Source: a bacterium 1XD21-70 (GTDB lineage: Bacteria; Bacillota; Clostridia; Lachnospirales; Lachnospiraceae). Taken from it: a stretch of 64,000 bases of DNA. This document shows positions 35,461-57,270 of the stretch, one piece after another (position 1 is the stretch's first letter; the number at the start of each line of letters is the position of its first letter). The position numbers were made by a program, and so were the translations under genes. Below the pieces are notes generated by a model. It saw only the letters and a list, made by a program, of their open reading frames with translations, was not told the origin of the DNA and ran no database searches. The stretch lies in assembly GCA_003669055.1 (NCBI GenBank), contig RAYB01000012.1:62001-126000 (forward strand). The letters are read 5' to 3'.

Positions 35461-35502
35461 TTCGTAAAATTTACAAATATTTATTTGACGCCCTCCTATA
35501 AT
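35461..35502 (+). promoter_or_regulatory. Island operator-promoter, copy 1
   Basis: TTCGTAAAATTTACAAA (35461-35477; core GTAAAATTTAC 35464-35474), then 22 bp, then -10 TATAAT (35497-35502). No good -35 hexamer lies at the standard distance. It drives the 35576-38874 pair. Confidence 0.75.
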
Positions 35503-35575
35503 CGTGTTAGGATAGAAGCGCAGAGGCACGCCAAAGATGCAAAATCCAAAATTTAAAGAAAGGTGCAGGAAAAGC

Positions 35576-36868
35576 ATGAAGGAAGAAAGCAAGGCACGCA
35601 GGGAATTATTTTTTAATGATTCCGAGACAGCCGAGACAAATATCATTAAAAAATTTGAGAGATATGAAAAGAGCCTGCTGTGGAAGAAAGCAGAGAACTA
35701 TCAAAAGAACCTGCTGTGCATCCAGGATATCGCAGACAGGCTCCTTGGATACATGAAAGGGCATCAAACCTCTTTTGAGCCGGAGATCACGGACGAGAAC
35801 GGAAAATTCAGCCAGGAGAAGCTCTCCGGTTTTGTGGAAGGGCTTTTATCCCGTTGGGCAGCAAAGCAGCGGGAGGGCACATTCACGGATCCGTCCACAG
35901 AAGAAAGCATAGCGGAGCCCTATATCCGGGTGCGGCAGGAACTGTATGGCAGCTATCTCTATGTGGTCATGCGGTGCAGCCTGTGCAAGAAGGATTATGC
36001 CCTGGTGACAGGCAGAGAAATGGAGGAGAGGACGGATTTCGCTTTCCTGCTGGAGCAGGCGAAGCGGCTTTGGCAAAACTGGTGTGTCATGGAAAAACCG
36101 GAGGGGGGCAAAAGGAACGAACTGTTCTGGGGCTATGATGATCAGTTCGGCCTCCATCTTTACCGCGTCCTCTCATGTCCGAAAGCAGGTTACAACAATG
36201 GCCTTGATCTGGTTGGGCGTTTGCCTGTGGATCGCCCCGCTTTCCTGACAGATGAAGGCAATGTGAAACGGAATCGATTCAAAAGCATCTACCTGAACCG
36301 CAGACCCTCGTCATTGTCGAAGAAGGCGGAGGAAGCGGCACAGCCGGAGGAATACATCGCCGGGGACAGCCGCGAAGGTGAGGACAGCTATGGCACGGAA
36401 GACGGCTATGACGGTGAGGACGGTTATGACACCGAAAATAACTATGACGAAGAGGACGATTATGATATCGAGGACGACTATGACATCGAATACAGCTATG
36501 ACGAAGAGGATGATTATCGCGATGATATGTACTTCTCGGAATACCGTGACGATGCATGGTATGAGGCAGAGGAGCGTGAGGTACAGAAGCAGGTGGATAT
36601 CGAGTATCTGGCCTTGTCCTTTGAGTCCTCGGGTGAATATGTCCGGCACTGCAGACGCTTCGTGGAACTGTTTGAGCAGGCGGGACAGGATGTCCTGAGG
36701 GGCTTCTGCGAAGATCTGGAAGAGATCGTGGCTCTGTATCTGGCAGAGCAGGATATCCCGCCCGTGATGGATACGGATAAGGCACTGGACGTATACAGCG
36801 GCATCTACGATGGCCCTTACCGGCAGGCAGAGCGCTACTCAAGGGGGATACGATGGAAAAATCTATGA
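35576..36868 (+). CDS. Island family A protein, acidic-linker type
   Basis: 430 residues, no recognised domain, no signal peptide. It is paralogous to 46485-47798: shared blocks are YMKGHQTSFEPEITDENGKF, RQELYGSYLYVVMRCSLCKK, RTDFAFLLEQAKR, then near the C-terminus CRRFVELFEQAG, DLEEIVALYL and DKALDVYS. The middle differs completely: here it is a Tyr/Asp/Glu-rich repeat (YDEEDDYDIEDDYDIEYSY). A start at 35537 is also possible, but that stretch aligns with the untranslated leaders of sister genes, so 35576 is chosen. It overlaps the next gene by 16 bp. Cytoplasmic; function unknown. Confidence 0.75.
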   Translation: MKEESKARRELFFNDSETAETNIIKKFERYEKSLLWKKAENYQKNLLCIQDIADRLLGYMKGHQTSFEPEITDENGKFSQEKLSGFVEGLLSRWAAKQREGTFTDPSTEESIAEPYIRVRQELYGSYLYVVMRCSLCKKDYALVTGREMEERTDFAFLLEQAKRLWQNWCVMEKPEGGKRNELFWGYDDQFGLHLYRVLSCPKAGYNNGLDLVGRLPVDRPAFLTDEGNVKRNRFKSIYLNRRPSSLSKKAEEAAQPEEYIAGDSREGEDSYGTEDGYDGEDGYDTENNYDEEDDYDIEDDYDIEYSYDEEDDYRDDMYFSEYRDDAWYEAEEREVQKQVDIEYLALSFESSGEYVRHCRRFVELFEQAGQDVLRGFCEDLEEIVALYLAEQDIPPVMDTDKALDVYSGIYDGPYRQAERYSRGIRWKNL

Positions 36869-38874
36869 GGGGAATTCGTGAGACCTACTTCTATGACCTG
36901 ATTGACGACTATCGGAAACAAGGGGAAAAATCTTTCCTGTACAGAAGCTTTTGGGCCGAGAACATCAGGGAACTGCTGAAAGAGAGCCTGCCGCCGCTTT
37001 CGAAGAAGAATTTCAGGAAACAGATGGAGAAACTGAGCAGAGGGTTCCTTGCGTTTCTGGCAGATGAAAAGAACGAACCGGAGCAGATGAGGGAACATTT
37101 CGCCCAGCTTCCGGAAGAGGTGAAAAAACTGCTGGAAGTGCATCTCCCACAGCTTCCGGAGAGCACCGTAAAGCTTTTGAAGGAACACTTTGGACAGCTT
37201 CCGGAAGAGATGAAAGAACGGTTGACGGGACGCTTTTCCTGGCTTTTGGAAGAAGAGACCTCATGGCTGAAGTACGGAGCCAAAATCAGGGGGCTTCTGA
37301 AAGAAAATATGCTGGAGCGCCCGGAGTGGGCACGTGAAGTGCTGATACGAAAACCACCCCAGAGGGCAGAGAACGGACAAGGGACAGAACAGGAAAAGGA
37401 GAAACAGAAGAAGGAGCGCCGGGATTTCTGGAAGGAACTTATGCAAAACGATGCCGGCTATGAAGCAGGCCTGATTACGGATGCGGAATATTACCTGTGG
37501 CTGACAGAGTATCTGGCAGTACGCGATATCTATTATAAAGATATCAGCATAGCTGACGGACACACATGGCTGTATAAGCTGCTGTGTATGGGGCTGGGAC
37601 GGGAACTTGAGGAGTCTGTGAGGCTTGACGAAATCCGGAAGCTTGAAAAAGAGATTCAGAAACTGGAAAAAGAGACCCAAAAACTGGAAAAAGAAATTAT
37701 GGAGAGGAAAGAATCTTTGGAGCGCGAAGGAGCCGAAATGCCTGAAATTCTTAAGAAGCTTGAAAAATCCCGGGCGCGCAAAGAATCCAGAAAACTCGAA
37801 AAAATCAGGGAACTTGAAACGCTTAAAAAGCCCAGAGAACCCGGGGAACCCAAAACACTTCAAAAGAGCGGCCAGAACATCCGCGATAAGGCGGGCGTAG
37901 AGCGAGATCTGGCAGAACTGGCAGAGAAGGTTTGGAGCGAGGCAAAAACAGGTGGCAAAGAAATTTCCAACCGTCTGCACGACCTGAAAATCAAAATAAG
38001 AACCAAAAAAGGCATCCGGACGGTGGACTACCTGCCATGGCTGACCGGAAAGCTGGAAAAGATGGCAGTTCACATTAAGATTAAGACCTGGCTGCAAGAC
38101 AATGGGTATCCCCTCGGGGAGGAGGACGAGCTTAAGAATCTTTTGCAGGAACGCCGGAAGCAGGACTTCTCCCTGCGGCTTTTCGGAGCATACTGTGACA
38201 GTGAGAAAGGTTATGATTTCATCGGAAAGGGAGAAGGCGGCAAGGAATCCGATGAAGGCTGGACAGTGAGAAACGGGTTCTGTGTGTGGGAGCCGGATGG
38301 CTTTGAGAATTACCGCCAGGCACTTTTGCAGGCTTTGGAGCAGGAAGGCAAGGAAAATTTCTACTTTCCGCTGGCCATGGATCTGCATAGCGGCTGTGTC
38401 TTTTTCCTGGCAGGGAAGGAATACTACGCGAAAGTGTATGAGGAGAGCGAAAAGGCGGAACTGAAAAAGAAATATGATAAGGAAGATGCCTTTTTCTGCT
38501 ACGACTTTCTGCGTCTGGACAAGAAAAACTCCGATGATCCGGAAGTGGCATTCCAGCTGCAGCCCACCTTTCACGAAAATGCCGGAAAAAGCTATGAAGA
38601 TGTTCTGAGCAAATTCAAATGGTACTGCGGAAGCGGACGTGGCATACAGATGGAGTCCCAGAATATAGACAACGGAATCGGATATTACTATGAGGATATG
38701 GACAAGATTCCCCGCCAAAAAATCAAGGCATGTAATGAAGAGGGTTTCATTGGTATCCCGAAAGCGTTTTGGTGGGCTTTTGATGGCTTGGAGGACGTGG
38801 AGCCAAGTCCAATGGCGAAGAACGACTTCCAACGGACACAGAGAAAGTTTGCTAAAGACATCCTGCGCCGCTGA
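36853..38874 (+). CDS. Large coiled-coil protein, unknown
   Basis: 673 residues, overlapping family A by 16 bp and therefore probably made with it. Residues about 60-135 hold three or four degenerate helical repeats built around LPEEVKKLL, LPESTVKLLKEHF and LPEEMKERL. Residues about 255-345 are a very strong coiled coil of LEKE-type heptads. The C-terminal 280 residues look globular (FSLRLFGAYCDSEKGYDF, GYYYEDMDKIP, GIPKAFWWAFDGL). No signal peptide or membrane segment. No family recognised. A scaffold or effector role with the family A protein is speculation. Confidence 0.75.
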   Translation: MEKSMRGIRETYFYDLIDDYRKQGEKSFLYRSFWAENIRELLKESLPPLSKKNFRKQMEKLSRGFLAFLADEKNEPEQMREHFAQLPEEVKKLLEVHLPQLPESTVKLLKEHFGQLPEEMKERLTGRFSWLLEEETSWLKYGAKIRGLLKENMLERPEWAREVLIRKPPQRAENGQGTEQEKEKQKKERRDFWKELMQNDAGYEAGLITDAEYYLWLTEYLAVRDIYYKDISIADGHTWLYKLLCMGLGRELEESVRLDEIRKLEKEIQKLEKETQKLEKEIMERKESLEREGAEMPEILKKLEKSRARKESRKLEKIRELETLKKPREPGEPKTLQKSGQNIRDKAGVERDLAELAEKVWSEAKTGGKEISNRLHDLKIKIRTKKGIRTVDYLPWLTGKLEKMAVHIKIKTWLQDNGYPLGEEDELKNLLQERRKQDFSLRLFGAYCDSEKGYDFIGKGEGGKESDEGWTVRNGFCVWEPDGFENYRQALLQALEQEGKENFYFPLAMDLHSGCVFFLAGKEYYAKVYEESEKAELKKKYDKEDAFFCYDFLRLDKKNSDDPEVAFQLQPTFHENAGKSYEDVLSKFKWYCGSGRGIQMESQNIDNGIGYYYEDMDKIPRQKIKACNEEGFIGIPKAFWWAFDGLEDVEPSPMAKNDFQRTQRKFAKDILRR

Positions 38875-38967
38875 GGTGAAGGAAATCTTACGGCAGGCTG
38901 GCAAAGCGGATGTATTTACTGTTGACGGGGCGTTCTGTTAAAATACAATGATTCAGACAAAAATGTG

Positions 38968-39025
38968 GCTATCCCAAAAGGTGTCAGAGAGACTGACATG
39001 AAAGCCTTTGCGGGATAGCCTTTTT
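38968..39025 (+). terminator. Long-stem terminator after the 35.5-38.9 kb unit
   Basis: GGCTATCCC (38968-38976) pairs with GGGATAGCC (39012-39020), with an inner stem TGTCAG/CTGACA, followed by TTTTTC. Curiously the same stretch reads as an LRR-type peptide (VAIPKGVRETDMKAFAG) in frame 1. Confidence 0.7.
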
Positions 39026-39027
39026 CT

Positions 39028-39140
39028 GTACTGCTGTGCATTGGGGAAGGATGGCAGACTGGCCATTCCGGGGAGCGTCACTAAAATCGCTGACAGTGCC
39101 TTTAGAAGTTACATTGGTCTGGCCAGCGAGCCGCGTTGGC
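39028..39140 (+). pseudogene. Remnant of a BspA-type leucine-rich-repeat gene
   Basis: A short open stretch reads LGKDGRLAIPGSVTKIADSAFRSYIGL, one clear LRR_5 repeat of the kind found in the four LRR genes further right. It has no start, no ribosome site, and the upstream LRR-like stretch is in another frame. It is best read as a decayed fragment of a deleted LRR gene. Confidence 0.55.
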
Positions 39141-39267
39141 GGACAGTTTCATGTTGTGTCCTCCCCTGTTCTGGGGTTGATTGGAGTATGGCCTGGTTTG
39201 TTGTCTGTTATATCCTCCCCTATCTGCCGCATCCTTGGGGTTGGCTCCATAGTTTCCTTTAATTTTA

Positions 39268-39309
39268 TCTGTAATAATTACGAACTCTACTTTAAAAACC
39301 TACTATACT
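39268..39309 (+). promoter_or_regulatory. Island operator-promoter, copy 2 (divergent)
   Basis: TCTGTAATAATTACGAA, core GTAATAATTAC (39271-39281), keeps the palindrome but differs in the centre. After 22 bp comes -10 TATACT (39304-39309), followed by the conserved CTGTAAGGC. It precedes the 39387 gene. Confidence 0.6.
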
Positions 39310-39924: not shown

Positions 39925-39966
39925 CATGTAAAATTTACAAACAGCAATTTGCATACTCACTATAAT
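39925..39966 (+). promoter_or_regulatory. Island operator-promoter, copy 3
   Basis: CATGTAAAATTTACAAA, core 39928-39938, then 22 bp, then -10 TATAAT (39961-39966) and the conserved TTTGTAAGGC. It drives the ClpP-like gene and probably the two genes behind it. Confidence 0.75.
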
Positions 39967-40797: not shown

Positions 40798-42102
40798 ATG
40801 TATAACAACATCAAAACCAAACGTATCCTTGCGAAGAACATCCTCGCCAGCAACGACACCTGGGCCACAGGCATCAACAACAACGATCTGCTGATAGGCC
40901 CGCCTGGAGGCGGCAAGACCAGGGGCTATGTGGTGCCCAACATCCTCCACGCCCAGGACAGCCTGATCGTGGCCGACACCAAAGGGAACCTCCGCAGGCT
41001 GTATGGAGACCATCTGGAGAGGAACGGCTACAAGGTCATGCATCTGGACTTCACGGACGTGGCTGAGACCCCCTGGGGCTACAACCCCCTGTCCTATATC
41101 CGGAAGTGCCGGGATGCCGAACTCAACCGGAACGGGGACTACTACAATGAACAGGACATAAAAAAACTGGCTCAGGCTCTCTGCCCGTGCATGAACAGCA
41201 AAGAACCCTTCTGGGACCAGGTGGCTCAGATGTATTTGGAGGCGATCGTCCTCTTTGTAATGAACCTGCTGCCCCAGGAGCAGCATAACCTGTACGAAGT
41301 GTACACCTTCCTTTCAAAGATGGGAACCGAGGGGCTGGAAAACATAATAGAGGAGGAGTGCACCACCCATCCCGACAGCGCCTTTGCACGCAAAATCGGG
41401 ATGATCCGGCAGAACACAAAGGCAGAGAAAATGGATGCCAGCATCAAGGGAATCCTGGCTCAGCACCTGAACGTGGTGACCTACTCCGGCGTGAAGCGGA
41501 TGTTCCGCATGAAAGAGCAGGTGGACATGAATGCCTTCCTGGAAGGAAAAACGGCTCTGTTCCTGTCCGTCAGCGACTCCGACCGCAGCCAGGATGCCCT
41601 GATAAACCTCTTCTACACCCAGGCATTGCAGTACCTCATGTCCGCCGCCGACAAACAGCCGGACAGCCGCCTCCCCATTCCGGTGCGCTTCATCCTGGAT
41701 GACTTCAGCACCAACACCGTGATTCCGGATTTCGACAAAATCATAGCAGTAATCCGCTCCCGGGAAATCTATGTCAGCATAGTCATCCAGAGCCTCTCCC
41801 AGCTGGAAGGGCTCTACGGCCACGCGAAGTCCCAGACCATCATCAACAGCTGCGACCACTGCCTGTACCTGGGCGGCACGGACACCCAGACAGCCAAGTA
41901 CTTTGCCGAAAAGTTCAACTGCCAGGTCTCCACGGTTCTGAACCTGCCCCTGGACACCATGTTCATCTTCGAGAGGGGCACCGAGCCACGCAGGACACAG
42001 AAGTATGAACTGGCTCAGGATGAAGTCTACCGCAGCCTGATGGAATGCATAGAACGGATGCCAACAGGAGCAGGAGCAGAACCCAGAAAGGAGGCTATAT
42101 GA
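40798..42102 (+). CDS. TraG/VirD4-like ATPase without membrane anchor
   Basis: 434 residues related to type IV secretion coupling proteins. Walker A is IGPPGGGKT (Lys40), followed by VVPNIL and LIVADTKG; Walker B-like RFILDDFSTNTVIPDFDKII matches the VirD4 LDEF block; QSLSQLEGLYG and CDHCLYLGG fit the sensor region. Normal VirD4 proteins have two N-terminal membrane helices and about 600 residues; both the helices and an obvious all-alpha cap are absent or reduced here. No relaxase or mating-channel genes are in view, so it may have been co-opted. It overlaps the next gene by ATGA. TAGGAGGG before the ATG. Confidence 0.88.
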   Translation: MYNNIKTKRILAKNILASNDTWATGINNNDLLIGPPGGGKTRGYVVPNILHAQDSLIVADTKGNLRRLYGDHLERNGYKVMHLDFTDVAETPWGYNPLSYIRKCRDAELNRNGDYYNEQDIKKLAQALCPCMNSKEPFWDQVAQMYLEAIVLFVMNLLPQEQHNLYEVYTFLSKMGTEGLENIIEEECTTHPDSAFARKIGMIRQNTKAEKMDASIKGILAQHLNVVTYSGVKRMFRMKEQVDMNAFLEGKTALFLSVSDSDRSQDALINLFYTQALQYLMSAADKQPDSRLPIPVRFILDDFSTNTVIPDFDKIIAVIRSREIYVSIVIQSLSQLEGLYGHAKSQTIINSCDHCLYLGGTDTQTAKYFAEKFNCQVSTVLNLPLDTMFIFERGTEPRRTQKYELAQDEVYRSLMECIERMPTGAGAEPRKEAI

Positions 42103-43214
42103 AAAACGAAGGCAGGATGCTCCTGACAATGGAGGAGCGTCTGGAGCGGTCGGCAGGGTCTTTGGCGGCTTCGCCCGAGGCCGCTGCCAAGCTGGTGGAA
42201 CGGTTCTCCCGGATTCCCGCATTCCAGGTCTTCTTCGGGAAGCCCGATGTGGATGCCATGTATGGGCTGACCGGGGAGTTCTGGGATCATCCGGCTGTGG
42301 ACATGGGCAGCTACTACGGCTTCAGCCATAGCTTCCGTCTTGCAATTGAACACGACAACGGTTCCTTTCAGCTATCCCCGCCAGGCATGCCCATGGCGGA
42401 GAACCGGAATCCCTATAAGCCGGTTTGGGGCGTCAGGACGAACAACTCCATAGCCCTGCTGGGGCTGATGCTGCTGGACCATGCAAAGGGCAGCCTAAGA
42501 CCCAAGAATATCTACCACTGCATGCGGATGACACTGGGACAGTACCTGGATGCCCTGGCGGATCTGGACTTTCAAAAAAACGCAAGACAGGATTCAAGCC
42601 AGGAGGAGTCTCGGAGTTGGAGGGAATCGCTCCTAAAGGGTTATGACGGCTCCATCCCCCTGGTGAAGGCGCTGTCAGGCATCCTTGGGCGTTACATCAC
42701 CGCCTGGCAGGAGTTCGACCATCTGGATCATATCATCCGCTGCATAGGCGCCCTCTCCTGCTATCTGGAACAGGAAGAGGCAGGGAGAACCCTCCCTTTG
42801 GAGGAGGCGGGCAGGGTTCGGCATTTCCGGGAGGCACTCTGCCAGTACAGCCCTGATCTGGAGGGGTGGGAACTGGTGGAAATGAACAAGCGATACCTGG
42901 ATCCCCGCGGGTATTATTTCAGCTTGGCCTATGAGTATCCGGAAAATGTGCCGGATCCCGGCAGCAAAGACGTCGCCCCGGGAACCCTGCGCAGCCAGAT
43001 TTTCCTCTCCGAGCGGGATTACAGCCCCAAGTCTCTTCTGAAACTGGCCGCCAAGTCGCCTTCCCCGGATCTGCAGGCACTTCTGGAGAAGTACGTCTGC
43101 GGCGAACGGCTGGCATCCGCTATGAGGGAGATCAATATAGCGGTGGCAGATTTGTATGTCCTGTTTGTGGAGCCCTATCTGCGGATGGGGGCATACTGCT
43201 GCAAAAACCATTGA
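42099..43214 (+). CDS. Island family B protein, unknown
   Basis: 371 residues, translationally coupled to the VirD4-like gene (ATGA overlap; AAAGGAGG upstream). A close paralogue is at 56146-57270; shared stretches include GLTGEFW, HSFRLAIEHDN, YHCMRMTLGQYLDAL, TAWQEFDHLDHI, LSCYLEQEEA and VPDPGSKDVAPGTLRSQIFLS. Mostly helical, no membrane segment, no signal peptide, no known catalytic motif. Conservation of the operon link with ClpP and the ATPase suggests it works with them, perhaps as substrate adaptor or effector. That is inference. Confidence 0.8.
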   Translation: MKNEGRMLLTMEERLERSAGSLAASPEAAAKLVERFSRIPAFQVFFGKPDVDAMYGLTGEFWDHPAVDMGSYYGFSHSFRLAIEHDNGSFQLSPPGMPMAENRNPYKPVWGVRTNNSIALLGLMLLDHAKGSLRPKNIYHCMRMTLGQYLDALADLDFQKNARQDSSQEESRSWRESLLKGYDGSIPLVKALSGILGRYITAWQEFDHLDHIIRCIGALSCYLEQEEAGRTLPLEEAGRVRHFREALCQYSPDLEGWELVEMNKRYLDPRGYYFSLAYEYPENVPDPGSKDVAPGTLRSQIFLSERDYSPKSLLKLAAKSPSPDLQALLEKYVCGERLASAMREINIAVADLYVLFVEPYLRMGAYCCKNH

Positions 43215-43578: not shown

Positions 43579-45033
43579 TTACGGCAGAAAATACCCCGCC
43601 ATCCCTGTAAGCACTTCTGTCCTTTCTCCACATTCCGGGCATGTATAAGTCCCGAAATAGTAGCAAAGACGTTCCACGCCTTCCGTATCATCAAGAAGCA
43701 TAAATAGGTTGAACAGCCAGGAGTTTACATCCGCCAGGCTTTCACCATCCCACTTCTTTACCGGTACATCCGCCTTTTCAATCCGCTTAGAAGGATCAAA
43801 GTAACCGAATTCAATCTCTTCATCGCAGCTTTCACAGCCAGGGCAGACGATATAGCACGATTCTAGTTCCGACATGGCCAGCAGAAACGCAAGCCTTCTC
43901 TCCCCCATGATTGCCGTTACGGCAAAAGCAAACCCACGTCTTAAGCTGATATGTTTTTCCCGTACAACATCCATATGTCCTGCCAGGAAATTGGTGGCCA
44001 TGCCCCGGATCTGCAGGATGGCATTCTCATAGTTCTCCCCCACATCGTCCTCCTCGGGCCTGCTGCCAAACACATCTGTGGTCAGGCAGCTTCCGACCGC
44101 CAAAATCCCCCGAAACATCCACTCTGTATCATTCTCCTTTTCCCAGCCCTCCATCAGTCTGGCAAGATAAGGGACAGCCAGCCAGGTGGCGGGGTAAAAA
44201 CTCATCTGATGCCACAGGCTTTCACAGAGATTATCAAAGGCCAATTCATAATTTGTCTTCGGCGCATTGTCCAGGCGGCGAAGCTTAAAGGTTTCATGGG
44301 CGTCTTCCCGCTCTCCCATCAGAATAGCCAGGTACTCCCTCACATCTCCATAAGCGCCCCTGTAAGTTTCCCATAAAATGGAATCGAGTTCCTGGAGCGT
44401 ATAAGGATGCTGCCCCGCCTTCCGCCTAACTGCCTGAAAAGGCACACCCATACAGGGATGCCCGCCTGCCCTCTTTGATTTGGATACTGCCTTCTTTTCC
44501 GGTTCCTTTGCCTTAAGGCAATGTTCCGGTAAATGAACCTCTTTGATCCCGCAATCCAAAAATAAGCTGGCATCAAAAATTTCGCTGCCTTCCAGCGAAA
44601 GCCGGGTCAGACGGAACAGCTTCCGGATATCCTCCATATGTAAAAGTTTAGGACAGTGGAGCAGGCTGAGGCTTCTTAAATTTACCAGATTTTTAAAGAA
44701 TGCACAGTCAATCACTCCGCAGGCCGAAATCTCCAGGCTTTCCAGGGCAGTGCAGGCCGTTAAAAAGGAGAAATCATTAACCTGCATGGCGGAAATGGCC
44801 AGCTTTTTCAGCCGTGACATTTTTCCGATCACATGAAAGTCTCCCCTTGCGATCTCAAGCCGCTCCGGAAGCGGATCGCGAAGGGGATCAATCAGCTTCT
44901 GGTAAACCGGGCGTCCGCCACAGGCCAGATTCTTTATTTTCTGGAAGTCATAAAGATTCTCCGGCACCCTGCCAAGGATCTGGGCAACGTAAGTGAGCAG
45001 AACCGGGTCAATTGTTATTTTATTTTGTTCCAT
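43579..45033 (-). CDS. N-terminal LRR protein with HEAT-like C-terminus
   Basis: 484 residues. The N-terminal half (about 30-175) has leucine-rich repeats (LKKLAISAMQVNDFSFL, LESLEISACGVIDCAFF, LRSLSLLHCPKLLHM). This LRR module is shared with 58505-60232. The C-terminal half is alpha-helical with a HEAT-like pattern and two Cys pairs (CPGCESC, YTCPECGE) that may bind zinc. GAGGAGG precedes the ATG at 45033. It lies opposite to the palindrome-controlled genes and has no such operator. Layout (shared recognition part, variable end, beside small genes) resembles immunity-type genes, but no family is recognised. Confidence 0.7.
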   Translation of the reverse strand: MEQNKITIDPVLLTYVAQILGRVPENLYDFQKIKNLACGGRPVYQKLIDPLRDPLPERLEIARGDFHVIGKMSRLKKLAISAMQVNDFSFLTACTALESLEISACGVIDCAFFKNLVNLRSLSLLHCPKLLHMEDIRKLFRLTRLSLEGSEIFDASLFLDCGIKEVHLPEHCLKAKEPEKKAVSKSKRAGGHPCMGVPFQAVRRKAGQHPYTLQELDSILWETYRGAYGDVREYLAILMGEREDAHETFKLRRLDNAPKTNYELAFDNLCESLWHQMSFYPATWLAVPYLARLMEGWEKENDTEWMFRGILAVGSCLTTDVFGSRPEEDDVGENYENAILQIRGMATNFLAGHMDVVREKHISLRRGFAFAVTAIMGERRLAFLLAMSELESCYIVCPGCESCDEEIEFGYFDPSKRIEKADVPVKKWDGESLADVNSWLFNLFMLLDDTEGVERLCYYFGTYTCPECGERTEVLTGMAGYFLP

Positions 45034-45046
45034 ATCGTCTACCTCC

Positions 45047-45103
45047 TCAAAATGGTTTTGATGTATTCTCCTGCTGCAATCGCCAGTTTGCAATATCATC
45101 CAT
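45047..45103 (-). CDS. Possible short leader ORF
   Basis: 18 codons (MDDIANWRLQQENTSKPF) with a good AAAGGAGG site, ending right before the ribosome site of the LRR/HEAT gene. It could be a leader peptide or chance. The rest of the 45034-45248 gap shows only a weak 22-codon frame. Confidence 0.25.
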   Translation of the reverse strand: MDDIANWRLQQENTSKPF

Positions 45104-45248: not shown

Positions 45249-46052
45249 TCACTCAGAATCATTGGGGGTAAGGGAAATTTCATAAGCCTTTTTCTCCAGG
45301 TACTCCCAGTTCTCATTATCAACCGGTTCATAGGATGTCCATGCCACTTGAAGCTGGTTTTCCGATATATAAAATCTAATACGGGTTTCCACCCCATCAC
45401 TTGTATCAATATCCGGTTCCGTCACATAATCAAAAGTGTAAAACGCATGTTTCTGCGTCCAGTCCAACGTGTCCCGGTAATAAATCGCCGCATTTTCCGC
45501 AGGTATCTTTATCAGTCCGAACAGCTTCTCGCTTTCTTCTTTTCCAGGAACATAGAAATAACATCTTGTCTCATTTGAGGCGATGTAAAATTCATTTTCT
45601 CCTGCCTTGTCCTGAAACAGTATCTCGCCATCACTCAGATCGATCAAGAGCAGATCGCTTTCTTCCAGCCATCCTTCCACATAGCCATTGTGATGGGGAG
45701 CCGTCCAATGCTCCGCACAAACCCAGGTTTTCCCCTCTTCCTGTACGCTCCCGCGCATCGCTTTGCTCCCCACATCGGGATAACTGTACAATACCGAACC
45801 ATTTTCATCCAGGATATGCATATCGTAGTCATAGGTTTTCTTGTAATCATCCGCTTTTTCCCACTGAAGATAGCAGGAACTTCCCTCAATGGGAGATTTT
45901 TCATCATAAGTATAGCAATCCCTGTTATCGCCGGACGGATATATTACTTCATACTTTATGGCACCTGCTGTTGGGTCACAACCGGTCAGCATCAGAGCAA
46001 ATATTACGGCACAGCATAAAGAAAAAATACGGCACACAGCTTTTCTTTTCAT
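45249..46052 (-). CDS. Lipoprotein, unknown
   Basis: 267 residues. Signal peptide with basic start and hydrophobic core, ending in lipobox LTGC (Cys25). The mature part is beta-rich with many aromatic and acidic residues (CYLQWEKADDYKKTYDYDMHILDENGSVLYSYPDVG) and looks like an extracytoplasmic binding domain. AAAGGAGAGGGG precedes the ATG. It is upstream of and on the same strand as the LRR/HEAT gene. No family recognised. Confidence 0.7.
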   Translation of the reverse strand: MKRKAVCRIFSLCCAVIFALMLTGCDPTAGAIKYEVIYPSGDNRDCYTYDEKSPIEGSSCYLQWEKADDYKKTYDYDMHILDENGSVLYSYPDVGSKAMRGSVQEEGKTWVCAEHWTAPHHNGYVEGWLEESDLLLIDLSDGEILFQDKAGENEFYIASNETRCYFYVPGKEESEKLFGLIKIPAENAAIYYRDTLDWTQKHAFYTFDYVTEPDIDTSDGVETRIRFYISENQLQVAWTSYEPVDNENWEYLEKKAYEISLTPNDSE

Positions 46053-46448: not shown

Positions 46449-46485
46449 GAATCCGATCGCGGCAAAAATTACCGCGTATCGGATT
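46449..46485 (-). terminator. Hairpin directly behind the family A gene
   Basis: GAATCCGAT plus GCGG pair with CCGC plus ATCGGATTC around a short A/T loop, immediately after the stop codon. It has no clear T-run on the minus strand, so terminator function is uncertain. Confidence 0.45.
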
Positions 46486-47798
46486 CACAGGGCTTTCCAT
46501 TGCAGTTCCCTCCCATAAGATTTCGCCAGCCGAAGGGATCCTCCACAGACGCGGCTGTACACATCCAGCGCCTTATCCATATCCGCCAGGGGGGCGATCT
46601 TACGCTGACCCAGATACAAATTCACGATCTCTTCCAGTTCCTCACAGAAATCCCGGGAGATCTGTGCCCCTGCCTTCTGAAAGAGTTCCACAAAGCGCCG
46701 GCAGGCAGAGCAATACTCGTCCATCCCCTCAAAATGCTGAACCAGAAACAGCAGATACATGTTCCTGGTCTCCAACTCTCCCTCCTGCTCATACTCAGCT
46801 TCCCACCATGCGATGCGATCCTCCTCATCCAACTCATCCAGAGGGCTCCAGAAATCGTCTTCTCCGGGGTCAGGGAAGGCATTGGCAAAGCTGTAGTCAT
46901 CATCCCAATCCTCATAAAAAAGGCCATCGCTGTCCATATCTGACACATCCGTTTCCTCCGGCTGCCCTGTCATAACCGGCTCATCCGCTTTCTCCGGCTG
47001 TTTTGTCTCCCCAGACCCTTCTATTTCTTCTAGCTGTTCCGCCTCTCTTGGCTGTTCTATTTCTTCCAGCTGTTCTGTCCCCCCTGGCTCTTCTATTCCC
47101 TCTGGCTTTTCTGTCTCCCCTGGCTCTTCTATTCCCTCTGGCTGTTCTGTTTTCCCCGGCTCTTCTATTCCCTCTAACCCTTCTGTCTCCCCCGGTTCTG
47201 CCGTCTGGCTGTAGAGCCAGTTTTCGGCTCTCAGATGCGGAGGGGTCAGAGCCCAGTCGTCATCCAGGGTTCTTACGTTCAGTTCCATAAAGGTAAGGTA
47301 ATGGTTAATGGGAGAATAGAGGTGGAAGCCGAAATGCCCGTCATAGCCCCCGCACGGTTCGTTCCGGCTGGTTCCGTCCGGCCCGTCTATCATACACCAG
47401 CTTCGGGAGAACCGCTTTGCCTGCTCCAGCAGAAAGGCGAAATCCGTCCGTTCCTTTTGCTCAATGCCCCGGGCGTAGAAGTAGCCCTCCTGGCACAGGC
47501 TGCACCGCATGACCAGATAGAGGTACAGGCCGTACAGTTCCCGCCGCGTCCGCAGGTAGGACTTCACCCAGCTTTCCTTAGCATAGGGATTCGCGCGCAG
47601 TTTCTCTTCCCAAAGGGAAAGCATCTCCTCCACCAGGCCGCGGAGTTTTTCCGGACAAAACTCCCCCTTCCTATCTGTAATCTCCCGCCGAAAGGAGTAA
47701 TCGTAGCCCTTCATGTGGCGCATAAGTTCATCCGCCGCCTCCTGCAGGCTTTGAAGGTTTTTTTCATAGATTTCCAGCTTTTCCTTAGACAGTTCCAT
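46485..47798 (-). CDS. Island family A protein, Pro/Glu-linker type
   Basis: 437 residues, paralogue of 35576-36868. Shared blocks: HMKGYDYSFRREITDRKGEF, RRELYGLYLYLVMRCSLC, RTDFAFLLEQAKR, CRRFVELFQKAG, ELEEIVNLYL, DKALDVYS. Between about residues 215 and 300 lies a repeat array of degenerate 11-12-residue units (EEPGETEKPEGI type), where the sister has Tyr/Asp/Glu repeats. So both keep conserved ends and a rapidly changing acidic linker. It is the only minus-strand gene in the island that uses the palindrome, sharing it with LRR1. Cytoplasmic, function unknown. Confidence 0.72.
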   Translation of the reverse strand: MELSKEKLEIYEKNLQSLQEAADELMRHMKGYDYSFRREITDRKGEFCPEKLRGLVEEMLSLWEEKLRANPYAKESWVKSYLRTRRELYGLYLYLVMRCSLCQEGYFYARGIEQKERTDFAFLLEQAKRFSRSWCMIDGPDGTSRNEPCGGYDGHFGFHLYSPINHYLTFMELNVRTLDDDWALTPPHLRAENWLYSQTAEPGETEGLEGIEEPGKTEQPEGIEEPGETEKPEGIEEPGGTEQLEEIEQPREAEQLEEIEGSGETKQPEKADEPVMTGQPEETDVSDMDSDGLFYEDWDDDYSFANAFPDPGEDDFWSPLDELDEEDRIAWWEAEYEQEGELETRNMYLLFLVQHFEGMDEYCSACRRFVELFQKAGAQISRDFCEELEEIVNLYLGQRKIAPLADMDKALDVYSRVCGGSLRLAKSYGRELQWKAL

Positions 47799-47868: not shown

Positions 47869-47933
47869 ATACTAGCAACACACAAAAAATCATTTGTAAA
47901 ATTTACAAATGATTTTTTGTGTCCCGGTATACT
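47869..47933. promoter_or_regulatory. Island operator-promoter, copy 4, bidirectional
   Basis: TTTGTAAAATTTACAAA (47893-47909, core 47896-47906). Forward -10 TATACT (47928-47933) and reverse -10 TAGTAT (47874-47869) are each exactly 21 bp from the core. It drives LRR1 rightward and family A leftward. Confidence 0.75.
47881..47921. repeat. Perfect 41-bp palindrome
   Basis: Two 20-bp arms mirror each other around one central base. It contains the island operator and extends it by 12 bp each side, including A6 and T6 tracts. Confidence 0.9.
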
Positions 47934-49911: not shown

Positions 49912-49952
49912 TTTGTAAAATTTACAAACTGTTTTTTCAGGACTGATATAAT
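49912..49952 (+). promoter_or_regulatory. Island operator-promoter, copy 5
   Basis: TTTGTAAAATTTACAAA (49912-49928, core 49915-49925), 21 bp, then -10 TATAAT (49947-49952). Drives LRR2. Confidence 0.75.
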
Positions 49953-49974
49953 AGTATCTACAAGGCGCTCATGA

Positions 49975-50123
49975 AAAACTGAATGACCGTCCGAAGGAAA
50001 TCTTCTCCAGGGAAATACGCCGTAATGCCCGGATGGGGCTAGCGTATCAAAGGGAAGGGAAACGCCGTGAAGCGACAGCGGCGGCTTCGGGGAGAACGGC
50101 ACAAAACAACTGACAGAAACAGA
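49975..50123 (+). promoter_or_regulatory. Long leader of LRR2 with small ORF
   Basis: About 149 bp absent from the LRR1 leader but present before LRR3 (about 52037-52186) and, more diverged, before 55529. It contains a 19-codon frame (49983-50042, MTVRRKSSPGKYAVMPGWG), kept in LRR3 (52045-52104), and a possible stem GCCGT-GAAGC with GCTTC-ACGGC. A leader peptide or RNA regulator is possible. Confidence 0.4.
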
Positions 50124-51973: not shown

Positions 51974-52014
51974 TTTGTAAAATTTACAAACTGTTTTTTC
52001 AGAACTGCTATAAT
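51974..52014 (+). promoter_or_regulatory. Island operator-promoter, copy 6
   Basis: TTTGTAAAATTTACAAA (51974-51990, core 51977-51987), 21 bp, then -10 TATAAT (52009-52014). Drives LRR3 and probably LRR4. Confidence 0.75.
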
Positions 52015-52228
52015 AGTATCTACAAGACGCACATAGAAAATTGAATGACCGTCCGAAGGGGAACTTCTTCAGGGAAATACGCCGTAATGCCCGGATGGGG
52101 CTAGCGTGTCAAAGGGAAGGGAAACGCCGTAAAGCGACAGCGGCGGCTTCGGGGAGAACGGCACAAAACAACTGACAGAAGCAGAACAACCCCAAATTCA
52201 GAAATGATAAAAACAGGAGGTAGAATAT

Positions 52229-53899
52229 ATGAAACAGAATCAGGACGCTATCACCCAAAAGAGGGCGTACTTTGCCGAAAATGGAATGGAACTCTCCGAA
52301 GACCTGAACACAATCCGCATCACAGCCAGGTTCCTGCCCGATAAACGGGACGATCTGACGGACGAGGAAATGGAGGACATGACACTTAAGCAAGTGGAAC
52401 AGGAACAAAAGCGGAAGTGGGAACATAGCTGGAAGTGGTTTGTCTGGCGCCTGATCATCCAGCTTCAGTCGGCCGGACTGCATGAGGCCGTCTATCTGAG
52501 CAATCCCAGGTATCAGGATGTGGAGTACAGGGATTTTTCGGACTTCGAGGAAGCGTACCTGGTTCACTGTGAAGAATCGGGAGCCGGCTTCGGAAAGTCC
52601 GAATGGGACAAGACCATGGGAGTCAGGCTGGTCAGCAGGCTTCCAAAGGAACTCATTGTAGACGAAGATCACCCTTATCTCTCTGTCCGGGACGGCGTAC
52701 TCTTTAACAAAGAACAGACAGAACTGCTCTGGTATCCCTACTGGAAGGAAGGGGAAACCTATACGGTGCCCGATGGCGTCACAAAAATCGGCTACCAGGC
52801 GTTCGCAGGGTATATGACCACCGTTGCAAAGAGAAAGCAGGACGGAAGCAGAGTGGACTACCTCTGGCGCAGGGTATTTGCCAATGTCACAGACAGCGGC
52901 ATGGATACAGAGTATGAGATAAGGCCGGCCTCTGTGGTGAAATACGTGTTCAACAGAAACCTGCGTCATGTGATCATGCCCGACACGGTGACGGTAATCG
53001 AGGAAAATGCATTCGATCACTGCATTTTCCTGAACTCCGTAAAATTGTCCAATGCGCTGGAAGAGATCAGATCCTACGCGTTTAAGGGATGCAAGGAGAT
53101 GAGAGAGATCAGCCTTCCTGACAGTCTGGAGCGTCTCATTGCAGAGCAGCGATATGGCAACAGGTACAGGGCAAGCTTCTTCCCTGATAATCTGGAACGG
53201 GTGAACTTCCTGGGTACCCGGTGCCGGCTCCAGCCGATTATAACACATAAAACATGGAAATTGGGCGTGCCGTATATAACCGAGCCGTACACTCCGCAGT
53301 TTTTTTATGATATATTCAGAAGTAAAAAAGACGTCACGATCACATTTGAGGCCGGAAACGAGCGGTTTTCCTCGGAGGGCGGCGTGATCTTTAATAAGGA
53401 CAGGACGGAACTGATCTACTGTCCCCAGTGGAAAAGCGGCGTCTATACTGTCCCAAAGACCGTTGTACGGATCGGGAAAGGAGCGTTTGCGAGAGTCAGC
53501 AGCGGGCCGACCCGGGTCATCTTCGCGGGCAGCGCGGTGACGGACATCGGGGATGAGGCATTTTCCTACTGCAAGGATCTGACGCATATCGACCTGCGCA
53601 GCATAAAACACATCGGGGACAGGGCGTTTGCCGGCTGCAAGGCTCTGACGCGCATCGATCTGCACAGCGTGGAGCACATCGGAAACGGGGCATTTTCAGA
53701 CTGCACCGCTCTGGGTTCCACAGTCACAATCCCCAGAAGCTGCAGGTCTATGAGTTCCTATGCGTTTTCACATTCTAAAAGGCTGGCAACATCCTTAGAA
53801 ACACTGCGCGTTTCCCAGGACACAAAGATCGTCCGTCCGGATAACATATTTTTACGCAGCTGGGGCGCTGAATTCGTTCCCAGAATCGACCGCTATTGA
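52229..53899 (+). CDS. Cytosolic BspA-type LRR protein 3
   Basis: 556 residues, third member of the tandem family with the same N-terminal domain and LRR_5 repeats (IEENAFDHCIFL, IRSYAFKGCKEM, IGDEAFSYCKDL, IGDRAFAGCKAL, IGNGAFSDCTAL). No export signal. The unit is a duplicate of the LRR2 unit. The next gene, LRR4, begins 118 bp later with its own ribosome site and no operator, so both may share one transcript. Confidence 0.85.
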   Translation: MKQNQDAITQKRAYFAENGMELSEDLNTIRITARFLPDKRDDLTDEEMEDMTLKQVEQEQKRKWEHSWKWFVWRLIIQLQSAGLHEAVYLSNPRYQDVEYRDFSDFEEAYLVHCEESGAGFGKSEWDKTMGVRLVSRLPKELIVDEDHPYLSVRDGVLFNKEQTELLWYPYWKEGETYTVPDGVTKIGYQAFAGYMTTVAKRKQDGSRVDYLWRRVFANVTDSGMDTEYEIRPASVVKYVFNRNLRHVIMPDTVTVIEENAFDHCIFLNSVKLSNALEEIRSYAFKGCKEMREISLPDSLERLIAEQRYGNRYRASFFPDNLERVNFLGTRCRLQPIITHKTWKLGVPYITEPYTPQFFYDIFRSKKDVTITFEAGNERFSSEGGVIFNKDRTELIYCPQWKSGVYTVPKTVVRIGKGAFARVSSGPTRVIFAGSAVTDIGDEAFSYCKDLTHIDLRSIKHIGDRAFAGCKALTRIDLHSVEHIGNGAFSDCTALGSTVTIPRSCRSMSSYAFSHSKRLATSLETLRVSQDTKIVRPDNIFLRSWGAEFVPRIDRY

Positions 53900-54017
53900 C
53901 GGACGCAGACACCATGAAGAACATTTCGGACGGCAATGCTGCTGCCGTCCGAAAGAACACTTCCACAAGGAAACAACACAAACAAAAAGCGAAACAAAAA
54001 AGGAAAGGAAATTACAT

Positions 54018-55277
54018 ATGTCTATGTCAGATATCAAGCGGAGCATTTTAAAAAATCAATTTGATGATTATGAAGAGCCGGAAGATTATGATTCCGAGCC
54101 GCCCAAGCCAGTGGATGATTTTTATATCATCGGAAAATGCCTGGGCAGATACAATGGCCCGGGAGGAAATGTGACCGTTCCGGAAGGCATCACAGAAATC
54201 GAGTACGGGACTTTTCAGAGCCGTGACAGCGTAACAGGCATCACCATCCCAAAGAGCGTTATCAGGATCTCCCCCGGAACCCTTCAGGATTGCATGAATC
54301 TGAGTGAAATCCGGGTGGACGCGGAAAATCCGTGCTATTGTGTCATCAACGGCCTGCTGCTGGAACGGGATGGCACGGTACTGCACAGCTGTCCTCCGAC
54401 AACGTCAGGCGTGCTAAAGATCCCAAAGAGCGTCACTGAGATCGGTGAAAAAGCCTTTGCATTCTGCAGTGGCCTGACCGATATCATCATCCCGGAAAGC
54501 GTCACCAGGATCGGTGACGAGGCCTTTGCGTCCTGCAGTGGCCTGACCGATATCATCATTCCGGAAAGTGTCACCAGGATCGGTGACGGAGCCTTTGCCC
54601 ACTGCAGCGGCCTGACGAGCGTGGCAATTCCAAAGTACACCACGCATATCGGCTGGCTTGCTTTTTGGGGTACGAATCTGACCCGCATTGTGATTCCGGA
54701 GAACGTTGCCAAAATTGCTGACGGAGCCTTTAACGGCTGCACAACTCTGAGTGAAATTCAGGTAGACGCAGGAAATTCGTTTTATTGCATCATCAATGGC
54801 CTGCTGCTGAGTCGGGACGGTTCCGTTCTGTATCAATGTCCGCCGGCAACGTCAGGCGTACTGACGATCCCGGAAAGTGTCGTTAAAATTGCTGACGGAG
54901 CCTTTTCCGCCTGCAAAGGCCTGACCGGGGTGATTATCCCGGAAGGGGTTACACGGATCGGCGAATATGCCTTTGCCGACTGCACAGGCCTGACTCATGT
55001 GAATATCCCGGAGGGGGTTACATGGATCAGCGAAGATGCCTTTGCCGGCTGCACGAGCCTGATCAATGTGACAGTTCCCAAAAGCGTTGTATATATCGGT
55101 GACGGAGCTTTTGAAAACACGGGCCTGGCGGAAGAAACCATTCAGGCCGCATATGACCAGGCAGAAGAGACAGATCTGGAGTCTATGACGTGGAATGATT
55201 TTCCAGACTGGGAGCCTCTTGCGGAGTCTATGATGCAGAATGATCTTTCGGACAACGAGGATGAAGATTATTCGTAA
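54018..55277 (+). CDS. Cytosolic BspA-type LRR protein 4
   Basis: 419 residues, a purer LRR_5 protein than LRR1-3 and lacking their N-terminal domain. After an acidic N-terminus (about 1-35) it has about a dozen 23-residue repeats of the type IPESVTRIGDEAFASCSGLTDI, with two almost identical in sequence, and a short non-repeat insert (GLLLERDGTVLHSCPP, repeated later as GLLLSRDGSVLYQCPP). The C-terminal 45 residues are acidic. AAGGAAATT precedes the ATG. No signal peptide. Such repeats bind proteins in other systems; partner unknown. Confidence 0.85.
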   Translation: MSMSDIKRSILKNQFDDYEEPEDYDSEPPKPVDDFYIIGKCLGRYNGPGGNVTVPEGITEIEYGTFQSRDSVTGITIPKSVIRISPGTLQDCMNLSEIRVDAENPCYCVINGLLLERDGTVLHSCPPTTSGVLKIPKSVTEIGEKAFAFCSGLTDIIIPESVTRIGDEAFASCSGLTDIIIPESVTRIGDGAFAHCSGLTSVAIPKYTTHIGWLAFWGTNLTRIVIPENVAKIADGAFNGCTTLSEIQVDAGNSFYCIINGLLLSRDGSVLYQCPPATSGVLTIPESVVKIADGAFSACKGLTGVIIPEGVTRIGEYAFADCTGLTHVNIPEGVTWISEDAFAGCTSLINVTVPKSVVYIGDGAFENTGLAEETIQAAYDQAEETDLESMTWNDFPDWEPLAESMMQNDLSDNEDEDYS

Positions 55278-55312
55278 AATTTACAGACTGTTTTTTTCAG
55301 ACCTGATATAGT
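55271..55312 (+). promoter_or_regulatory. Island operator-promoter, copy 7
   Basis: TTCGTAAAATTTACAGA (core 55274-55284), 22 bp, then -10 TATAGT (55307-55312). It overlaps the end of LRR4 and drives the 55529-57270 cassette. Confidence 0.7.
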
Positions 55313-55330
55313 AGTATCTGTAAAGCCCGC

Positions 55331-55477
55331 ATGGAAAACGGAATGACCATCCGAAGAGAATCTTCTTCAGGAAAATACGCCGTAATGCCTGAACCGGGCA
55401 GACGTGTCAAGGACAACGGAAACGCCGTGAAACGACAGCGGCGGCTTCGGAGGAGAACGGCACGGAAAAACCTATAG
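55331..55477 (+). CDS. Possible leader ORF of the second cassette
   Basis: 48 codons, starting MENGMTIRRESSSGKYAVMP. The first part matches the 19-codon frames before LRR2 and LRR3, with several synonymous differences. Here it runs on into an Arg-rich tail (VKRQRRLRRRTARKNL). No good ribosome site, so translation is uncertain. Confidence 0.3.
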   Translation: MENGMTIRRESSSGKYAVMPEPGRRVKDNGNAVKRQRRLRRRTARKNL

Positions 55478-55528
55478 AAACAAAGGAATGAAAAACTCAA
55501 AAATTAGGAAAACAGGAGGAAATGAAAA

Positions 55529-55651
55529 ATGGCTATTGATTGGGAATATTACCTTGACGCAGAGGGAGATGAACTTCAGGACGCATATGACCGGGCGGTG
55601 GAAGAGGCAGAGGAAATGCTCGGCTGGGACGAGGATTGGGACAACGATTGA
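55529..55651 (+). CDS. Small acidic 40-residue protein
   Basis: ACAGGAGGA lies 9 bp before the ATG. The product (MAIDWEYYLDAEGDEL and following, to GWDEDWDND) has about 17 Asp/Glu and only one Arg, so it is strongly acidic and perhaps DNA-mimic-like in charge. It occupies the first position after operator copy 7, ahead of the broken ClpP gene. Too short for standard gene calling. Family unknown. Confidence 0.55.
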   Translation: MAIDWEYYLDAEGDELQDAYDRAVEEAEEMLGWDEDWDND

Positions 55652-55692
55652 TGGAATTGAGAAATGCAATCCTGTAAAACAAGCAGAAACCT

Positions 55693-56038
55693 ATGTACAA
55701 TCCAAACGAGGCAAGAATCATCAGGGAATCATCCTACGGCTACCACCTCATCCCGATTCAGGACGAGATGCTGTCCCACCGGGAGGCGGAACTGGTCGGG
55801 GAGGTGGACGCGAACACAGTGAATGCTCTCATCCGGCGGCTGCGCCCTGAAGCTGAAAGCAATCAGCGATGATCTGATGGAAACCAGGCAGATCATTGCC
55901 AGGGTCATCGCAGAGCACTCCGGCAAGAACATGGAGGAAATTCTGGCAAAGACCGCAAACGATTGCTACTTCCGGGCGGAGGAAGCGGTCAAATTCGGGC
56001 TTGCTGACCGCATTATCACAAGCCTTGCGGACAAATAA
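55693..56038 (+). pseudogene. Internally deleted ClpP-like gene
   Basis: The first 51 codons match the start of the 40029 ClpP-like gene (MYNPNEARIIRESSYGYHLIP), and the 3' part (LKLKAISDDLMETRQIIARV to SLADK) matches its end. The middle 248 bp, with the catalytic Ser and His, is missing. The joint falls at GCGCC (55842-55846), which occurs at both borders in the intact gene (40178-40182 and 40426-40430), so a short-repeat deletion is likely. 248 is not a multiple of three, so the halves are out of frame. Confidence 0.85.
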
Positions 56039-56145
56039 CTCCGCGGCAGACAAAAATCCGATACAGCACATCCCGGCAGCCGCAGATGGCTGCCGGGAAA
56101 ACAGGAGAAGCCCGCAACCGGAGCGGAATATGGAAAGGAGGCTTT

Positions 56146-57270
56146 ATGAGAAACATGGAAAGAACGATTCTGCCGCTGGATGAGCGGCTGAAGATGGCGG
56201 CAAAATCTCAGGCGACCTCGCCTGAGGCCGCCGCAAGGCTGGTACAGCGGCTTTATGGGATACATACAGCGTATCTTTTTTGCGGAAATGCGAACTGTGA
56301 CATCATGGAAGGGCTAACCGGCGAGTTCTGGGAGTGCCTGGAGAATAATCTTCTTCATTACGGCGGCTTCTGCCACAGCTTTCGTCTGGCAATCGAGCAC
56401 GATAACGACTTTTTTGCGGCAATCTCATCTGATGCATCTGAGGAGGAAGCCTTTGACCCGTACCGGCCCGTCTGGGGCGTCCGGGCAAATAATGCCTTGG
56501 TTTTACTGGGACTGCTCCTGCTGGATCACGCAAAGGGCGGGATGAAATATCGAAATATATACTACTGTACGCGGATGACTCTGAAGCAGTATCTGGACGC
56601 CCTGGTGGATCTGAGTTTTCAGGAGGACGGAACGCAAGATGGAGATCGGGCGGAGAGTTTCTGGATTTGGCGGGAATCGTTTCTGAAAGGCAAAGACAAA
56701 GCCTGGAGCCTGAAAGAGGCTTTGGCCGACATCCTCAGGCGTTATATCGCCGCGTGGCAGGAATTTGATCATCTGAATCATATTCTCCGCTGCATGGGCG
56801 CTCTCTCCTGCTATCTGGAACAGGAAGAGGCAGAAAGAGTTCTCCCCCAGGAGGAAGAGGAGCGCATCCGGCGCTTCCGGAAGGCTCTCTGCCGGTATGG
56901 CACTGACCTGGAGGGATGGGAACTGGTGGAGACAGATAAGCGATACCTGGATCCGCTTGGGTATTATTTCTCTCTGGCCTGTGAATATCCGGAGGATGTG
57001 CCGGATCCCGGCAGCAAAGATGTCGCCCCGGGAACCCTGCGCAGCCAGATTTTCCTCTCTGATCGGAACTACAGGCCCAAAGCCTTAAGAAACCTTGCCG
57101 AAAAATCCCCCTCCCAGGATCTGCGGGAACTTTTGGAAAAGAGTATCTCCGAGGAGCGGCTGGCCCGTGCCATGCAGGAAATCAATATAGCGGTAACCGA
57201 TCTGTACATGCTGTTCGTGGAGCCCTATCTGCGCATGGGGGAATACCATTATGAGAGGCATCTGGAATAG
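56146..57270 (+). CDS. Island family B protein, second copy
   Basis: 374 residues, paralogue of 42099-43214 over its full length (GLTGEFWECL, HSFRLAIEHDND, YYCTRMTLKQYLDAL, AAWQEFDHLNHI, LSCYLEQEEA, VPDPGSKDVAPGTLRSQIFLS). GGAAAGGAGG precedes the ATG; the longer frame runs into the intergenic hairpin. Unlike the first copy it has no VirD4-like gene in front, and its ClpP is broken, yet the gene itself is intact. So family B may function without the other two. Function unknown. Confidence 0.8.
   Translation: MRNMERTILPLDERLKMAAKSQATSPEAAARLVQRLYGIHTAYLFCGNANCDIMEGLTGEFWECLENNLLHYGGFCHSFRLAIEHDNDFFAAISSDASEEEAFDPYRPVWGVRANNALVLLGLLLLDHAKGGMKYRNIYYCTRMTLKQYLDALVDLSFQEDGTQDGDRAESFWIWRESFLKGKDKAWSLKEALADILRRYIAAWQEFDHLNHILRCMGALSCYLEQEEAERVLPQEEEERIRRFRKALCRYGTDLEGWELVETDKRYLDPLGYYFSLACEYPEDVPDPGSKDVAPGTLRSQIFLSDRNYRPKALRNLAEKSPSQDLRELLEKSISEERLARAMQEINIAVTDLYMLFVEPYLRMGEYHYERHLE

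Follow-up and report, generated by a model that had tools for sequence, protein, structure and literature searches.

The stretch of DNA analysed here (the window) comprises 64,000 nt of contig RAYB01000012.1 from the Lachnospiraceae bacterium 1XD21-70, whose assembly spans 4.31 Mb in 137 contigs. It carries a gene island encoding a ClpP-like protease, a VirD4-like ATPase, a small Cys-rich protein, a coiled-coil protein, four leucine-rich repeat (LRR) proteins and two protein families designated A and B, with a second, incomplete cassette at its end and three interspersed minus-strand genes (Table 1). As the original prediction had noted, seven copies of a palindrome lie in front of these unlike genes; six have the exact core GTAAAATTTAC and one, palindrome 2, the variant core GTAATAATTAC. 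With up to three mismatches allowed, the window has 12 strand-matches to the full palindrome TTTGTAAAATTTACAAA, located at 6 places, compared with 0.17 ± 0.40 expected, and this number was reached in none of 100 shuffles of the window.

The predicted distance of 21–22 bp between palindrome and -10 box was measured at all seven sites, being 22 bp at palindromes 1–3 and 7 and 21 bp at palindromes 4–6. Two further features had been predicted and are seen only in part. The TGTAAGGC-like element said to follow the -10 box often is present at palindromes 2 and 3 and degenerate at palindromes 4–7, but it is absent at palindrome 1, where TTGACG-N17-TAGGAT is found instead. The minus-strand genes were said to lack the palindrome, which holds for two of the three; the third, a family A gene, reads away from palindrome 4 and has TAGTAT at 21 bp followed by TAGGAT, so that it diverges from LRR1 over a common site. 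Palindrome 4 itself sits in the middle of a perfect inverted repeat, each arm of which has 21 bases (47880–47922), and the core of palindrome 7 overlaps the stop codon of LRR4.

Table 1. Features of the island, in window positions (bit scores are those of covariance model R1)
Feature	Position	Strand	Remarks
Palindrome 1	35461..35477, core 35464–35474		before family A/coiled-coil operon; TTGACG 35485–35490, TATAAT 35497–35502, TAGGAT 35508–35513
Family A protein, 443 aa	35537..36868	+	no Pfam match
Coiled-coil protein, 673 aa	36853..38874	+	no credible Pfam match
Palindrome 2	39268..39284, variant core 39271–39281		TATACT 39304–39309
Small 6-Cys protein, 120 aa	39387..39749	+	no Pfam match
Palindrome 3	39925..39941, core 39928–39938		TATAAT 39961–39966
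ClpP-like protease, 198 aa	40029..40625	+	
VirD4-like ATPase, CD1115 family, 434 aa	40798..42102	+	without hydrophobic anchor
Family B protein, 371 aa from this start	42099..43214	+	predicted all-helical
Minus-strand island gene	43579..45099	-	no site
Minus-strand island gene	45249..46052	-	no site
Second family A protein	46485..47798	-	divergent from LRR1 over palindrome 4
Palindrome 4	47893..47909, core 47896–47906		common to two divergent genes; TATACT 47928–47933 (+), TAGTAT 47869–47874 (-)
LRR1, BspA-type LRR_5, 584 aa	47999..49753	+	
Palindrome 5	49912..49928, core 49915–49925		TATAAT 49947–49952
Leader RNA copy 1	49968..50101	+	146.3 bits
LRR2, 556 aa	50167..51837	+	
Palindrome 6	51974..51990, core 51977–51987		TATAAT 52009–52014
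Leader RNA copy 2	52030..52163	+	149 bits
LRR3, 556 aa	52229..53899	+	
LRR4, 419 aa	54018..55277	+	
Palindrome 7	55271..55287, core 55274–55284		TATAGT 55307–55312
Leader RNA copy 3	55328..55462	+	127.9 bits
ClpP remnant	55693..56032	+	matches in two pieces that lie in different frames; central part lost
Second family B protein, 374 aa from this start	56146..57270	+	

The core is not scattered at random over the genome. Of the nine exact copies found in the 4.31 Mb, the island accounts for 6; the mirrored control gave 3. Two exact cores outside the window show the promoter layout, one before a third family B gene (contig C46) and one before a CAP-domain gene (C36), where the site is followed by CTGTAAGAC; the exact core on C39 is internal to a long open frame, with no promoter layout. 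A looser promoter pattern matched the genome 10 times, one match being the back side of palindrome 4.

A search of genome contigs with family B identified 18 loci from 17 isolates, mostly Lachnospiraceae and including Acetatifactor muris, with some Oscillospiraceae-type metagenome-assembled genomes (MAGs). Family B is rare: 60 other relatives gave no match, nor did phages, and of 397 genomes of the family only the own genome has it. When 22 sequences were examined for clustering, family A occurred in 11 (12 genes), the VirD4-like ATPase in 12, and the coiled-coil protein and ClpP in 11 each, and among the matches listed these genes were often adjacent. The promoter was found at 37 sites in a set of 21 sequences, compared with about 1.0 in shuffles (single bases within 500-base blocks, five rounds), and 16 of the 21 sequences carry it. 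Its spacer, which was allowed to vary from 20 to 23 bp, measured 22 bp in 26 sites, 21 bp in 10 and 23 bp in one. Some genes of the module elsewhere have no site, namely the family A genes of L037 and L042 and the ClpP genes of L048 and L050.

A strict version of the pattern matched 32 times, in 12 of 17 whole genomes and for the most part ahead of genes of these families, compared with 4 for the mirrored pattern; the isolate of L039 was counted once, and L044, from the same isolate, was left out. Eleven loci from these matches were opened, two of which (L073 and L085) are one and the same site. The sites precede an LRR-like frame and a giant AAA-type frame (L069), ClpP and VirD4 (L073/L085), a Zn-ribbon-like small protein followed by a CAP gene (L070 and L092), a CAP gene (L071), family B (L088), a protein of the 77-aa type with no Pfam match at E ≤ 1 (L081 and L089), and genes outside the families described here (L087); that of L096 stands at a contig end, with no frame visible after it. 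The sequence comparison gives good support to a regulon that is conserved between species and has its palindromic operator at a constant place in the promoter. The original prediction that the island genes form one regulon is borne out by the concentration of the core in the island and by the recurrence of the same promoter before the same families in other genomes, but it needs amendment, as two targets lie off the island, one minus-strand gene shares a site, three transcripts begin with a structured leader RNA and some module genes elsewhere lack the site.

The anatomy of the promoter was analysed in 48 distinct sites, for which only spacers of 21 and 22 bp were allowed (11 and 37 sites, respectively). 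Arm position 1 of the palindrome was complementary in 35 of the 48 sites compared with 22.5 in shuffles, position 6 in 36 compared with 24.4 (p 0.0009) and position 8 in 34 compared with 27.3 (p 0.003), while position 7 did not covary (28 compared with 25.8, p 0.23). In the 34 less similar sites the p values for positions 1, 6, 8 and 7 were 0.013, 0.003, 0.012 and 0.31, with position 6 complementary in 26 compared with 17.4. Such covariation of the arms is as expected for a dimeric regulator. The 39 sites not of the A type have an extended -10 element and no separate -35 consensus, the stretch 16–18 bp upstream of the -10 box being the flank of the palindrome. In the 37-site scan, all 7 promoters before family A genes have a TAGGAT-like box, degenerate in L049 and L052, usually with TTGAC 17 bp upstream of it; this -10 box lies 11 bp, or one helical turn, beyond the position of TATAAT.

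In class II activator promoters, including those of the CRP/FNR or LuxR type and PRM of phage lambda with its activator CI, a dimer operator replaces the -35 element at a fixed distance from the -10 box. The island promoters share with them a palindrome in the -35 place, a nearly constant distance to the -10 box (21–22 bp in 36 of 37 spacers) and a weak -35 element, but they differ in having an odd-length AT-rich palindrome, an extended -10 element and a family A variant in which the palindrome stands one turn further upstream. On this basis we consider it probable that the seven sites are operators of a single class-II-like activator regulon that serves a ClpP/soluble-VirD4/LRR system and includes a promoter-proximal RNA. 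A homodimeric DNA-binding protein would bind the odd-length palindrome T[CT]GTAAWWWTTAC[GA]A, the centre of which would lie about 40 bp upstream of the transcription start, in the place of the -35 hexamer. Most of its target promoters would have no -35 consensus and an extended -10 element, TGnTATAMT, and the near-fixed distance of 21–22 bp suggests that the regulator touches RNA polymerase. Family A genes would be read from a canonical TTGAC-N17-TAGGAT promoter whose distance from the palindrome is greater by 11 bp (one helical turn), and a single palindrome could serve two divergent genes.

Three window operons (LRR2, LRR3–LRR4 and the second cassette) open with a leader RNA of ~133 nt. Sixteen of the 37 sites were aligned, and 10 of these, taken by eye where the leader aligned, were folded with RNAalifold, yielding 24 pairs, 12 of which were doubly changed. 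The covariation score was 0.347, compared with 0.216 in shuffles and at most 0.147 in slid versions, and the proportion of paired cells was 91.3% compared with 85.1% in shuffles; paired cells, double changes and covariation score were each reached in 0 of 500 shuffles. The number of pair types was not unusual (22 compared with 20.7 in shuffles; 134 of 500). A covariance model of 133 positions, R1, was built from 9 sequences, with L049 left out. Run over 30 sources, it gave 19 matches at E ≤ 1, two of which represent a single place and one of which (E 0.026) is probably due to chance, and the pair counts of the matches again exceeded all shuffles, although the matches were aligned to the model and so lean towards it. 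In 18 whole genomes, R1 found at least 41 matches in at least 14 genomes at E ≤ 0.01, a lower bound since 150 candidates were scored per genome.

Further copies of the RNA lie in mobile-element-like loci (L119, L120, L121, L122, L128, L129, L131, L132 and L133). The neighbours of 14 such copies, judged by eye, include XRE-like frames in 8 cases, recombinase-like frames in 3 and some replication-initiator-like frames, and none of the 14 has the core GTAAWWWTTAC at fewer than 2 mismatches within 200 bases upstream. BLAST with one RNA copy identified 5 plasmid records; the one inspected has annotated Cys_rich_VLP, RepA and recombinase genes downstream of the RNA. De novo folding of 10 of the 14 copies, none of them in the model (L117, L123, L124 and L130 were left out), recovered helices 1–4 but not helix 5, and double changes affect 11 of the 24 pairs. 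No Rfam 15 match overlaps the leader RNA in the window or in nine loci, where four matches all lie elsewhere, and the Rfam 15 matches in the window are three weak miRNA matches on palindrome 4 that are attributable to chance. Among 16 island RNA copies, a palindrome is near 13, and in 12 the RNA starts 39–45 bp after it. Leader RNA without a palindrome was also observed in the ClpP operons of L048 (7890–8024) and L050 (7883–8015).

Promoter-proximal antiterminator RNAs of conjugative elements, namely conAn2 of pLS20 (with ConAn1) and canT of Tn916, the latter studied as a 452-bp fragment, are described in two reports (PMC8955417, PMC11658703). The island RNA resembles conAn2, canT, EAR and put in being a leader near the start of an operon, and it is conserved close behind the promoter. 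It differs from conAn2 and canT in that it also heads short chromosomal operons, and the likeness observed is one of position. The element CACCTTGAAAAC may resemble boxA; no 16S gene for comparison was found in this assembly. The leader RNA most likely acts on elongating polymerase, perhaps as an antiterminator, or else it might act on the first gene. The latter possibility, a riboswitch or an element of translational control, is a realistic alternative given the compact multi-helix fold with a junction and the short distance from the RNA to the first gene in several copies. However, the RNA precedes unlike genes, including mobile-element-like ones, for which a common ligand is less likely, and it starts close behind the promoter.

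Several points weigh against the activator regulon as set out above. The covariation test of the arms controls the relatedness of sites only roughly, and some palindromes are read from both sides. The 9 A-type sites were picked by their TAGGAT-like box, so that their consensus is partly circular. Against the 10 matches of the looser pattern in the own genome stand 4 of the mirrored control, and five of the 21 sequences (L040, L041, L045, L048 and L050) have no site under the rule used. Taken singly, leader sequences do not outdo shuffles in folding (z 0.36 and -0.68), so the evidence for the RNA fold is comparative. In L048, L050 and L101 the leader RNA has no palindrome nearby, so that RNA and operator can be separated. 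Finally, spacing is the single feature that favours activation over repression. The palindrome could instead be an operator through which a repressor, such as an XRE protein of the Cro/CI type, acts on an extended -10 promoter. In A. muris (L043), L046 and G067:C221, an HTH_3 gene stands divergently on the other side of the intergenic region that carries the site, and several mobile-type RNA copies adjoin XRE-like frames by eye, but a repressor has no need of nearly invariant spacing. The XRE gene c30 of A. muris was rejected as the general regulator, as its family was detected at E ≤ 1e-10 in 9 of 18 genomes but not in that of the window, a result that counts against both the activator and the repressor reading. 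We regard repression as possible but rather unlikely.

It is very unlikely that the regulator is Zur or another Fur-family repressor acting on zinc-responsive boxes. The odd-length island palindrome does resemble Zur/Fur operators, its variant cores being close to the Zur box, TCGTAATNATTACGA; a text search of the literature for the core strings brings up a Zur and a FurC paper (PMC6336718, PMC10406281), and the genome has four Fur-family genes. However, the Zur box with up to two mismatches occurs at 8 places compared with 14 for the control, one of the 8 being an island site, and znuA has no site, the best core before it having 3 mismatches. The island targets, which are not zinc-uptake genes, and the promoter position also differ from those of Zur/Fur operators, and this candidate was rejected. 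One of the Fur-family genes of this genome has a sequence close to the island core, CAGTAATCATTACTG, on its downstream side (L063, 1975–1991). That the likeness of the sites mainly reflects shared ancestry, with promoter and gene duplicated together and no single regulator today, would account for LRR1–3, whose units are 85–89% alike in DNA and whose promoters are alike well beyond the palindrome. Yet the palindrome stands before unlike genes (A, Cys, ClpP, LRR and CAP), where its spacers have diverged, both arms retain symmetric changes and the promoter persists across genera, so that we find this explanation scarcely credible.

The transcripts of the proposed regulon would encode a set of proteins without strongly hydrophobic segments, comprising family A, the coiled-coil protein, the small Cys protein, ClpP, the VirD4-like ATPase, family B and the LRR proteins. 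The highest 19-residue hydropathy mean among 12 island proteins was 1.95, in ClpP, and with such low values the set looks cytoplasmic. ClpP matches PF00574 (E 7.7e-50) but falls below the NCBIfam equivalog cut-off (TIGR00493, 146.9 bits compared with 308.6). Catalytic Ser100 and His123 are kept in all 8 aligned copies, and the presumed Asp position is changed in one (L053); the island ClpP is divergent with catalytic Ser and His retained. The LRR proteins are of the BspA type. VirD4 coupling proteins usually have an N-terminal membrane anchor. The island ATPase scores above the cut-off of the CD1115 family of VirD4 proteins (NF045973, 269.5 bits compared with 250) but differs from that family in lacking a hydrophobic anchor (largest 19-residue mean 1.35) and in adjoining ClpP. 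It is ~28–31% identical to ten plasmid relatives among the matches listed, and no other transfer protein was detected among 20 island-region proteins scanned.

Family B is predicted to be all-helical, with a predicted local distance difference test score (pLDDT) of 76.9; its best fold match in the PDB had E 0.13, with none at or below 0.001. The structure model of family A is weak (pLDDT 57). A scan of 10 proteins for anti-phage defence with PADLOC gave one match, which is not credible (E 0.064). In the second cassette, family B is intact, residues 1–51 and 127–196 of ClpP match in different frames and the VirD4 gene is gone save for a doubtful 31-residue match; the cassette is a duplicate in partial decay, its ClpP being broken. 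As ClpP and ATPase genes are adjacent, our guess is that the set carries out ATP-driven protein unfolding and proteolysis, and should ClpP be fed by the VirD4-like ATPase, a motor of DNA transfer would have been turned to protein handling. A bolder and doubtful proposal is that an uncatalogued class of promoter-proximal antiterminator RNAs of gut-Clostridia mobile elements was adopted by a chromosomal system, in which a soluble ATPase derived from VirD4 would be the unfoldase of its own ClpP and the LRR proteins its recognition parts, all switched on by an activator via one palindrome.

In the open literature, at the level of titles and abstracts and with most subscription journals outside coverage, no description was recognised as this regulon or leader RNA. 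Through this analysis an unannotated gene cluster becomes a defined regulon whose promoter code can be tested and which occurs in the culturable A. muris and in MAGs, and a structured RNA with no overlapping Rfam 15 match ties mobile-element-like DNA to a chromosomal ClpP/VirD4/LRR system. If truly an antiterminator, the leader RNA would join a small set consisting of put, EAR, conAn2 and canT.

Several neighbouring frames were observed besides. In L044, a 1367-residue frame (6995–11098, plus strand) combines LRR_5 repeats with family B and is a natural fusion of two island families. In A. muris, a 1797-residue frame beside the module (L043, 14589–19982, plus strand) has two AAA domains and a peptidase M41 domain, with related frames in G067 and G077. 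The gene immediately upstream of the third family B gene encodes an AAA protein with an RNA_pol_A_CTD domain (PF03118, E 2.5e-21; L010, 13242–15242, minus strand). More minus-strand genes, one of them LRR_4-like, occupy window positions 57694–63155, and past the window end (L011, 6016–7083) lies a frame that by eye reads as a Ser/Thr kinase.

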